Positions 35,094 to 38,406 of a stretch of DNA of 64,000 nucleotides are shown here, one piece after another. Source of the stretch: Enterovibrio baiacu (GTDB taxonomy: Bacteria; Pseudomonadota; Gammaproteobacteria; Enterobacterales; Vibrionaceae). The stretch is from positions 124,001 to 188,000 of the forward strand of contig NZ_SCHN01000011.1 of assembly GCF_004120195.1 (NCBI RefSeq), given 5' to 3'. Position numbers and translations under genes: made by a program. Numbering within the stretch: the stretch's first letter is position 1; each line of letters opens with the position of its first letter. The notes below the pieces were generated by a model. That model was not told the origin of the DNA and did no database searches. It saw only the letters and a program-made list of their open reading frames with translations.

Positions 35094-37454
35094 TTAGCGC
35101 GCGGTTTGGCGGCTACGCTGACCAGCAGGGCGTTTCTTACCGCCTCCTGTAGGTTTAGCCGCGAATGGCTTACCACCGCCTTGTTTGTGTCCATTGCCTG
35201 CGGTGTTTCCGCCCGTTGGGCGCTTACCGTTGCTTGGTTTTCCACCATTCGTTGGTTTATTACCATTGCTTGTCTTAGCGCCGGTGGTAGGGCGGCCACC
35301 TGCAGGTTTGCCATCAGCGGTTTTACGCTGTGGCTTACGGATATCAGGCTGATTAGGGTGTTTCGTCGCAAAGCGCTTCGCACCGTGACGACCAGACCCG
35401 CGGCGTTGAGCGAATGTCAGCTCTGCTTCTGTGCCCGGTTGCGGAATCAAACAGCCCGGACGATCACCGATCAGGTGCTTTTTACCCATGCTGGTCAGCG
35501 CTTCACGGATCAACGGCCAGTTAGCAGGATCGTGATAACGAAGCAGGGCTTTGTGCAGACGGCGTTGAAGCTCGCCTTTCGCTACAAACAACTCTTCGCG
35601 TTTTTTGTATTTCACGCGCTTAAGCGGGTTTGTCTCCGAGTGATACATCGCCGTTGCGTTACACATCGGCGACGGGTAGAAGTTCTGTACTTGGTCACAC
35701 TGGAAATCATTTTCTTTCAGCCACAATGCTAGGTTCAGCATGTCCTCATCAGTACACCCTGGGTGTGCGGCGATGAAGTAAGGGATCAGATACTGTTTCT
35801 TACCCGCTTCTTTGGTGTACTTGTCGAACATTTCCTTGAAGCGGTCATAGGTGCCCATGCCCGGCTTCATCATCAGATCCAGAGTGCCTTTCTCTGTGTG
35901 TTCAGGGGCAATCTTCAAGTAACCACCAACGTGGTGAGTCACAAGCTCTTTCACGTACTCTGGTGATTCAATCGCAAGGTCATAACGAACACCTGACGCA
36001 ATCACCACCTTCTTAACGCCTTTGGTTTCGCGCGCAGCGCGATAAAGGTCGATGGTGTGCTGGTGGTCTGTGTTGAGTTTTTCACAGATTTTAGGGAACA
36101 CGCACGAAGGGCGACGGCAGTTCCTTTCTGCTTTTGGATCAGAACAGCCTAAGCGGTACATGTTCGCTGTTGGGCCACCCAAATCTGAAATAACGCCGGT
36201 GTAACCTGGCACTTTCTCGCGAATGTCTTCCAGTTCATTCAAGATAGATTCCTGAGAACGGTTTTGGATGATGCGGCCTTCATGCTCGGTAATAGAACAG
36301 AAAGAACAACCACCAAAACAACCGCGCATGATGTTGACCGACGTTTTGATCATTTCATAGGCAGGGATTTTCGCGTTGCCGTATTTCGGGTGAGGAACAC
36401 GTGCGTAGGGCAAGCCAAACACATAATCCATTTCGTCTGTAGTAAGAGGAATGGGCGGCGTGTTAACCCACAGTTCGCGATCACCGTGTTTTTGAGCCAG
36501 TGCGCGCGCTGAATATGGGTTGTTTTCTAGGTGCATCACGCGGCTTGCGTGTGCGTAAAGAATGCGGTCGTTCAAGAGCTTTTCGAACGAAGGCAAGCGC
36601 ACGTAGCTGTTTTCAGCATCGTGACGTGCAGGGCGAACCATTACAGGCTTTGCGACTTCTTCTTTCGCTGCATCTTTCGAGGTTTCACACGCCGTTTCTA
36701 CCACATACGGGTTGGACATCACCATGGCTTTGCCTGGCTTGTCGATACGCGTGCTGTCGATTTCTGCCATTTCTTCAGGCGTAGCTTTTAACATCACTGC
36801 CGTACCTGGAATACGGGTCATGGTTTTAATGTCTTCGCCGCGAGATAGGCGATGTGCAACGTCAACCAATGCACGCTCTGCGTTACCGAAGAGCAAGATG
36901 TCTGCTTTTGCATCTGATAACACTGAACGGCGAACTTTGTCAGACCAATAGTCATAATGCGCGAGACGACGAAGGCTGGCTTCAATACCGCCGATAACAA
37001 TCGCAGAATCTTTATAGGCTTCACGGCAGCGTTGCGAATAAACCAATACCGCGCGGTCAGGGCGCATGCCGCCTTTGTTGTCTGGTGTGTATGCATCGTC
37101 GTGGCGTGGTTTACGGTCCGCCGTATAGCGGTTGATCATGGAGTCCATGTTACCCGCAGTGATGCCGAAAAAGAGGTTAGGTTGGCCTAGCGCCATGAAC
37201 GCATCTTTATTCTGCCATTCAGGCTGCGCAATGATACCTACTCGAAAGCCTTGTGCTTCGAGTACACGACCAATAACAGCCATACCAAAACTTGGGTGAT
37301 CGACATAGGCATCACCCGTGACAATGATGATGTCACAGCTGTCCCAACCAAGCATGTCCATTTCTTCACGGCTGGTAGGAAGGAATGGCGCAGCGCCGAA
37401 GCACTCAGCCCAGTATTTTGGGTAATCGTAAATAGGAGTAACAGAATTGCGCAT
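35094..37454 (-). CDS. ygiQ: YgiQ-family radical SAM protein
   Basis: Radical S-adenosylmethionine enzyme of 786 residues (E. coli YgiQ about 739) whose reaction is not established. It has an N-terminal UPF0313 domain ([32 protein letters not shown]), the 4Fe-4S/SAM motif [16 protein letters not shown], and a C-terminal DUF3362-like part with [12 protein letters not shown]. The last ~80 residues are a low-complexity Lys/Gly/Asn/Thr/Pro-rich tail (KRPTGG, GGGKKRP), probably disordered and RNA- or nucleic-acid-binding (inference). The ATG at 37454 has AGAGGT upstream and begins at the conserved region; the longer frame to 37475 is less likely. Confidence 0.92.
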
Positions 37455-38175
37455 TTTTTGACCTCTTTCTCGCAAGGCGGCAATTATAGCGACTTGACGG
37501 GGTGAGAGCCAGCGAGATTAAACCTGCACTTTTACAAGGTTTTTAGAGAATTCACCGGTTGGCCATGCGGATGGAGCATCCTAAGGTTTCTTAGGTTAAA
37601 TAAAAGCATCCAGAAGACCAAATAAATGATGTTTACTGATTCGCTTTGATAAAAACAATTGAAAAACTGATAAACAAGCCAACAAAACATACGAGAGGGT
37701 AATGTGTGAGTCTTTGTTCATATACCCAAACAACCTGAAGATGCAGGATTCAGCGAGGTTTACTGACGTTATGATCTAGGCGTCCCTTTGCCGATGTAGT
37801 GATCTCCATCAAAAAGGGATAACACCGAGCATGGCGTCAGTAAACTCGCCCGAAGGGAGGCCTTCAGTGCGTCCACTTCATCGTTAAATTCCTGTGAAAT
37901 AGAATGACTATTCCTACAAGAATTTGCCTTGAACTGAACGCACTGATGGCCTCTGAAATCGAGCATCTTCAGGTTGTTTGGGTATATATAAACTAAATGA
38001 TGAATGTTTAAGTCTTATTAAATAGACATAACTTCAAACTTAATGCCTTTCTATCTTGACTAAGTCCCGCATAATTTTAATTATTAATGTAACAACCATA
38101 TCAATAGAGAAACATTTTAATGCAAACGAGTCATTTGTAAGCATTCAATGTAAAAAATTCCAGCGGAGGGAAAGT
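37455..38175. other. Gene-poor accessory region with a palindromic element
   Basis: 721 bp without a credible protein gene. It contains the 268-bp nested inverted-repeat element (37720-37987) between AT-rich flanks. The only open frames here are the one inside the element and an upstream extension of the 38176 gene, neither with a proper start signal. Confidence 0.6.
37720..37987. repeat. MITE-like element: 25-bp perfect terminal inverted repeats with nested hairpins
   Basis: The ends, 37720-37744 and 37963-37987, are perfect 25-bp inverted repeats beginning ATATACCCAAAC on the left. Inside are further paired blocks: GCGAGGTTTACTGACG at 37753 with CGTCAGTAAACTCGC at 37835 (one bulged G); CCCTTT with AAAGGG inside that; a GAAGG-GAGG-CCTTC hairpin at 37853; and GGCCTTCAGTGCGT with ACGCACTGATGGCC (one mismatch) enclosing AAATTC/GAATTT and TGT/ACA pairs. 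The whole could fold as a multi-armed cruciform or structured RNA. The flanks are TA-rich, so a TA target duplication is possible. It looks like a non-autonomous mobile element; the copy number cannot be seen here. Confidence 0.75.
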
Positions 38176-38406
38176 ATGGATAAGCAATATAATCAAGCCG
38201 TCGACGTGTTAGCGCAACTACGTGTGGGCGATGCCATTAGCGACGCGCTCAGGGCCGATGCGAAAGAAGTAACCAAAGAGGTATTTGAAAAGCATTGCCA
38301 ACACTATGACCTGAATGAGATCGATGAAATGCTCCACAGCGACGCAGTATGTACGACACTCAGGAATACATGGACAGACATGATTTGTGATGTTTGGCAC
38401 AGCTGA
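38176..38406 (+). CDS. Orphan 76-residue hypothetical protein
   Basis: A small, acidic, probably helical protein beginning MDKQYNQAVDVLAQLRVGD and ending CDVWHS. It is preceded by an excellent ribosome-binding site (GGAGGG, six bases before the ATG at 38176). It has three cysteines (KHCQHY, AVCTTL, MICDVW) and no membrane segment or signal peptide. I do not recognise a family. It sits between the MITE-like element and an Hha-like gene in a region of sparse genes, so it may be recently acquired; whether it functions with the convergent Hha-like gene is unknown. Confidence 0.65.
   Translation: MDKQYNQAVDVLAQLRVGDAISDALRADAKEVTKEVFEKHCQHYDLNEIDEMLHSDAVCTTLRNTWTDMICDVWHS

Follow-up and report, generated by a model that had tools for sequence, protein, structure and literature searches.

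A non-autonomous, TA-inserting mobile element in Enterovibrio baiacu with twin inverted arms between lineage-specific inverted ends

REPIN/BIME sequences are paired hairpins in inverted order, are non-autonomous and are associated with RAYT. For ERIC and similar TA-ended repeats the mode of movement is, to our knowledge, an old open question. The 266-bp element of Enterovibrio baiacu reported here also consists of two hairpins in inverted order; it differs from REPIN/BIME in size, terminal inverted repeat (TIR) and TA target, and a resident Y1 transposase was not found in the host genome (G000). ERIC (also IRU or RU-1) is tabulated as a 127-bp repeat of Enterobacterales with TA termini and target duplication (PMC2759123 Table 1a, PMC2229807 Table 1). 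In the entries devoted to it, the E. coli consensus is a hairpin and ends, as does the present element, in TATACCC...GGGTATA with duplication of TA (PMC2759123, PMC2229807); it possesses a single arm within 127 bp, in contrast to two arms within 266 bp. YPAL (RU-2) of Yersinia is likewise a structured intergenic mobile repeat, its printed sequence beginning with TTCAGA (PMC2759123), and is entered in PMC2229807 with a length of about 168 bp, internal inverted repeats, a duplication of 3–26 bp and no TA termini. Identity with YPAL/RU-2 was rejected because the element has TA ends and a TA duplication and the entry for YPAL gives neither (PMC2229807). Correia/NEMIS, RUP and other TA-ended MITEs resemble the element in being short and in having TIR and TA termini, and stable hairpin transcripts are noted for them (PMC2229807 Table 1). 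They are, however, tabulated for single genera, and twin arms with a conserved loop are not among the features described in that table (PMC2229807). Searches against Rfam 15 yielded no match over the element at gathering score in the window (the entire 64,000-nucleotide stretch analysed, contig NZ_SCHN01000011.1) and none over it in 8 loci (E up to 1) or 20 loci (E up to 0.05), all hits obtained being situated in other parts of these loci. An earlier description was not found in the open-licence literature and may exist elsewhere.

Including both TA copies, the element spans positions 37721..37986 of the window (266 bp), as delimited by its copies, its ends and the empty sites of other copies in the related genome G009. 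The body proper, TACCC...GGGTA, comprises 262 bp (37723-37984) with TA on each side; assignment of the left (37721..37722) and right TA (37985..37986) as target duplication is inferred from other family copies (L006 and L134@1047 for the left one). The left TIR (37720..37750, plus strand) pairs with the right TIR (37957..37987, minus strand) over 31 nt at 94 %, as is also evident from the predicted folds, and the outer 25 nt are perfect, in keeping with the 268-bp element with 25-bp perfect ends of a preliminary description made from the sequence alone. Two 103-nt hairpins fill the interior: a C-type arm (TTCAGC...GCCC; 37749..37851, plus strand) with the internal-loop core CTAGGC/AACACCG, supported by covariation, and an A-type arm (TTCAGA...TCCC; 37855..37957, minus strand) with the core CAAGGC/AACGATG. 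Both are separated by a 3-nt spacer (37852..37854) at the centre of CCC-GAA-GGG. R1, a covariance model built on a single arm, matched the C-type arm with 95.6 bits (near relatives of which contributed to the model) and the A-type arm with 93.1 bits (the arm itself is in the model), and on their own the arms fold with z -7.1 and z -12.3, respectively. Internal stems, as proposed previously, were recovered (37758-37776/37827-37845 and 37857-37880/37930-37953). Order beyond chance had likewise been suspected: the folding energy of the whole element corresponds to z -14.5 on the plus and z -16.2 on the minus strand, with none of 200 shuffles per strand being as good.

Of 59 copies measuring 266 bp, 12 have an intact version of the 65-residue open frame that lies within the element (37769..37966, minus strand). 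As Pfam gave no match to this frame at 0.001 either, it has the look of the by-product of palindromes it had been supposed to be. Neither neighbour label of the preliminary description held. The supposed orphan gene on the left (35094-37475, minus strand) matches Radical_SAM_N, Radical_SAM and DUF3362, and encodes a YgiQ-like radical SAM protein with DUF3362; the designation of the right-hand gene (38176-38406, plus strand) as Hha-like is unsupported, there being no Pfam match at 0.001. The latter is a frame of 76 amino acids that is kept beside the radical SAM gene in the relative G009.

The host genome, a member of the Enterovibrio/Grimontia group, harbours 10 full-length copies by DNA including that of the window (91–100 % identity), in addition to half copies and ends of about 35 bp. 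The TIR pattern was matched 67 times at up to 3 mismatches, with no match for the reversed control. A DNA match to the element (E 0.001) is present in 27 of 61 genomes (the own genome and relatives); it is strong (E at most 1e-30) in 16 of these and weaker or confined to the ends in the remainder. The exact 24-base TIR occurs in at least 102 stretches, including records named Enterovibrio, Grimontia, Shewanella and Paraglaciecola. Plasmid and phage records, searched by DNA with the element of the window, gave no match at E 1e-5. TIR-bounded pairs of 30–400 bp (n = 106, some loci being counted twice) most commonly measure 266 bp, other lengths falling within 40–60, 88–195 and 260–328 bp.

Six insertion sites, all within the Enterovibrio/Grimontia group, were compared with those of relatives. 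Copy L006 provides a clear case, the filled site reading GAA-TA-TACCC...GGGTA-TA-AGCG and the empty site of G009 reading GAA-TA-AGCG. The empty site of L134@1047, the left end of which is mutated, agrees with a TA duplication as well, and that of L134@2919 fits insertion at TA and is ambiguous owing to a TATA. A short end fragment retained at the L153 site looks like a later deletion, a 47-bp version occupies the L154 site, and the comparison for L158 gave no clear reading. At the window site itself, the element is absent from G009, in which the beginning of the radical SAM gene and the small frame to the right are retained, with intervening DNA too diverged for reading the joint. The TA-flanked ends suggested at the outset are thus supported by empty sites of other copies, and in four other genomes TA was present at both ends in 14 of 16 copies (L234 and L237 being the exceptions). 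At the L005 site both arms are present in the host genome, a C-arm with a collapsed A-arm in G009 and G011, and merely 47 bp in G015; the arms of inserted copies decay in place. Shortness combined with TIR, absence of a functional or conserved gene, duplication of a TA target and several copies per genome constitute the anatomy of a MITE, as had been surmised. Positions 37720-37987 are accordingly shown to hold a non-autonomous, TA-inserting mobile element with twin inverted arms between lineage-specific inverted ends.

Conservation of the fold was assessed in two alignments. From 82 full-length elements, 28 were chosen by hand and 56 arms extracted, 43 of which form alignment A1 (104 columns, nearly gapless; degenerate, expanded, identical and gapped arms left out). 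A single structure of 35 pairs accounts for A1, with 93.4 % of cells pairing, two-sided changes in 31 of the 35 pairs, and a covariation score of 0.824 versus at most 0.178 for slid versions. Alignment A2, for which 43 of the 52 loci L164-L215 supplied 84 arms, was hand-chosen and fitted to the model, and displays two-sided changes in all 35 pairs at a score of 0.951 versus at most 0.133 for slid versions; its further pair types (126) do not exceed those of shuffles (mean 123.3; 123 of 500 reach that number). Compensatory change thus maintains pairing in both arms, and the two arms of the element are one shared fold. The earlier suggestion of a structured mobile element is thereby borne out across copies and genera, irrespective of whether RNA or DNA adopts the fold. 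In A2 the internal loop CNAGGC/AACNNNG is nearly invariant, its C,A,G,G,C and A,A,C,G being 93–100 % constant, and TCAG at the foot of the arm is 90–99 % constant.

The element family is spread through many groups of Proteobacteria. At E 0.01, R1 detected 27 arms in the host genome, arranged as 11 twins and 5 singles. Larger searches were conducted on overlapping draws of genomes, each including the own genome, with rough E-values and counts that represent lower bounds, scoring having been capped at 10 candidates per genome: at least 176 of 394 genomes and 50 of 115 genera in the order draw (E 0.001), at least 106 of 369 genomes and 84 of 272 genera in the class draw (E 0.0001), and at least 95 of 398 genomes and 47 of 213 genera in the phylum draw (E 0.0001). 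The layout was read from 46 loci of the order and class draws with 96 R1 hits, most of which span 101–106 nt. An inverted +/- pair of arms is present in 44 of the 46 loci (L208 has no partner, and that of L200 lies farther off), with a spacer of 3 nt in 39, 2 nt in 2 and 18–19 nt in 3 of the twin loci. Where both arms belong to A2, a TTCAGA arm is joined to a TTCAGC arm in 34 of 39 pairs (5 being composed otherwise), which renders the element polar. Within a locus, the 26 nt that flank each arm on its outer side agree with their inverted counterpart at a median of 0.84 and a minimum of 0.69 (43 loci; a shift of up to 3 nt allowed), as compared to a median of 0.38 between loci (no shift allowed), indicating that the outer stem persists through changes of sequence. 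Ends observed include TATACCC, ATACCAATC, CTAGTGTACTGCG, CTAGTGTCCTGTC and TACTAAGAC.

Wobble pairs are distributed asymmetrically between the strands. With arms read 5'-to-3' inward, G.T outnumbers A.C by 129 to 6 in A1 (44 to 4 and 85 to 2 for the individual arms), as counted after omission of three poorly paired columns, which left 32 of 35 pairs, in arms chosen by TIR rather than by the model and with element L038 re-assigned by hand. A strand-symmetric recount of the 43 arms without G.U gave 47.5 versus 12, G.T being higher in 26 and lower in 10. The same recount gave 41.5 versus 11 for 44 model-found arms and 32 versus 13 for 37 partner arms (G.T above in 20, reverse in 6), 15 of the 96 hits having been omitted as expanded, cut or unpaired. 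By arm type, the fitted alignment yields 99 to 10 and 70 to 11; since the arm sequences are related, none of these counts represents independent events. A cruciform used on both strands would be expected to show equal G.T and A.C, and the excess of G.T thus points to pairing kept on one strand. This per-arm test replaced a comparison of whole-element folding energies (minus strand better in 72 of 81), which was not used as proof because the rule for orienting elements failed in the case of L038 and is of doubtful validity for some of the Shewanella copies.

Placement relative to genes was examined with crude frame calls. All 77 distinct full-length copies are located outside called frames, and the 70 classed copies occupy 35 tandem, 20 divergent and 15 convergent gaps (other gaps in those loci: 97, 38 and 40, respectively), so that 3' ends of genes are not favoured. 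Between tandem genes, the upstream arm is of A-type in 23 cases and of C-type in 11, a weak lean; the arm facing a gene 3' end is of A-type in 38 and of C-type in 26 cases, and that facing a 5' end is of C-type in 43 and of A-type in 31. Consensus scans of the element detected a single terminator-like site (37839-37820, minus strand), which is at chance level, and no promoter-like site. A terminator or 3'-end role was rejected on account of the missing placement preference and this single chance-level site.

Candidate mobilisers were sought in four protein families, namely Y1_Tnp, DDE_3, DDE_Tnp_1 and reverse transcriptase. Y1_Tnp was matched in 31 and DDE_3 (IS630-type) in 24 of the 61 genomes, most of which are drafts in which a collapsed IS could be missed. 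With this provision, Y1_Tnp is lacking from 15 of the 27 element-bearing genomes, including the host genome, and from 10 of the 16 strong ones, DDE_3 from 15 of 27, again including the host genome, and 9 of 16, and both from 9 of 27 and 7 of 16. Both were set aside as partners given that neither has a match in the draft of the host genome. DDE_Tnp_1 has 15 matches in 7 of 8 genomes (none in G008) and was set aside on the basis of the 6 of these 15 places that were read, which contain neither a TIR pair nor an exact 12-nt inverted pair, the best single end having 6 mismatches. An IS with the same ends was not recovered either, as the lone wider TIR pair in the host genome (contig C6, 1.8 kb, up to 3 mismatches) encloses seemingly unrelated genes, read by eye as PEBP- and AraC-like and without a transposase. 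A reverse transcriptase as common factor was dismissed, being present in 5 of 8 genomes and absent from G009, G013 and G016. Independently of this, locus L248 (G000:C35:90407-91039) contains an RVT_1 frame of 605 amino acids, similarly long frames are present in G011 and G015, and further RVT_1 matches occur in G008 and G010 with no link to the element seen. The 2.6-Mb relative G012 (e.g. L217) harbours many Y1 and DDE_3 matches, several of them stop-interrupted.

The reading preferred here, to which a probability of roughly 0.5 is assigned, takes the arms as a cis-acting mobility signal that docks a protein supplied in trans. The inward-reading strand at each end would become single and fold, either as DNA in the course of transposition or, with lower probability, as RNA; the loop CNAGGC/AACNNNG would dock the putative mobilising protein, and both ends would be brought together and inserted at a TA. 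Recognition mainly by the arms and the terminal TA would leave the TIR stem free to change its sequence. As no mobilising protein was found, recognition by a protein is something we infer. Inserted copies lose arms, only intact copies would found new ones, and the structure would be kept in this manner; since arms are lost in place, selection probably acts on copying. That the fold endures in the lineage through numerous changes, yet disappears from individual copies, is most simply explained by a structure needed for making new copies. With an arm at either end, each read on the inward strand, the layout would be easier to reconcile with synapsis than with a function as RNA, for which one arm per transcript would be needed. 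The wobble asymmetry, however, is compatible with RNA no less than with single-stranded DNA, a single arm would suffice in ERIC-like elements should these be related, and the empty sites stem from the Enterovibrio/Grimontia group only, with 2 of 16 copies elsewhere being without TA at both ends. An RNA device, in which the first-transcribed arm folds and protects, processes or insulates the transcript while mobility is a separate, TIR-driven matter, would explain the G.T excess in the inward strand of each arm and the weak lean in placement. We nevertheless regard it as rather unlikely, because both arms are kept although one of them is wrongly oriented in any given transcript, arms are lost in place, 3' ends of genes are not preferred, and promoter-like or above-chance terminator-like sites are lacking in the consensus scans.

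Palindromes can be corrected toward perfection. The element might therefore be an ordinary MITE of some IS, complete in its MITE anatomy, whose arms are palindromic by mutation alone (quasi-palindrome correction, template switching). This was judged improbable: stem-breaking loop positions stay at fixed places rather than being perfected, wobble pairs are strand-asymmetric, 34 of 39 pairs have retained both arm types, and most model hits have a length of 101–106 nt. A REPIN-like doublet, mobilised in single-stranded form by a Y1 transposase of the RAYT/IS200 type, would agree with the inverted order of the two hairpins, but the TA duplication and the long TIR do not fit, and Y1_Tnp is missing from the host genome despite near-identical copies as well as from 15 of the 27 matching genomes (mostly drafts), rendering this origin highly improbable. 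The defined fold, two arm types, near-invariant loop and defined target of this widespread family provide a handle on the movement of TA-ended repeats: the loop could serve as bait for the mobiliser, near-identical copies in a genome without a detected Y1 or IS630-type gene narrow the candidates, and a covariance model would annotate many unexplained repeats in Proteobacteria.

Kinship with ERIC is suggested, and no more than suggested, by the shared ends, the TA target and perhaps the loop core. The reverse strand of the E. coli ERIC consensus reads CAAGGC-GGC...GCC-AACGCAG, i.e. the same core, and the motif was met in 1 of 20000 shuffles under thresholds set after seeing it. Among nine ERIC copies the strict motif is present in one (L254), the closing pair beside the core is G-C in five and C-G, as in the consensus, in two, and the second AAC is lacking from two (L250 and L257). 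With filters off, the best R1 score on ERIC was 10.5 bits (E 0.15), which is at chance level (unrelated stretches: 9.0 bits); two alignments fall on the core and four more match by coordinates only. A search of the window with the strict ERIC motif was empty because the arms are mismatched just outside the core. A phylum-wide type of mobile DNA for which the folded shape, and not the sequence of the ends, is what is recognised, its twin arms forming a strand-specific docking structure for a host-encoded or unlinked mobiliser that tolerates almost any TIR and ERIC representing a one-arm branch, is put forward as a speculative extension that is probably too broad.

Arm length varies in some loci. 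At L057, L045, L112, L176 and L178 one arm contains about 15 additional nt, giving a version of 281 bp, and arms are expanded to about 150–166 nt in L175, L191, L192, L211 and L106, the expanded arms indicating that hairpin tips tolerate insertions.
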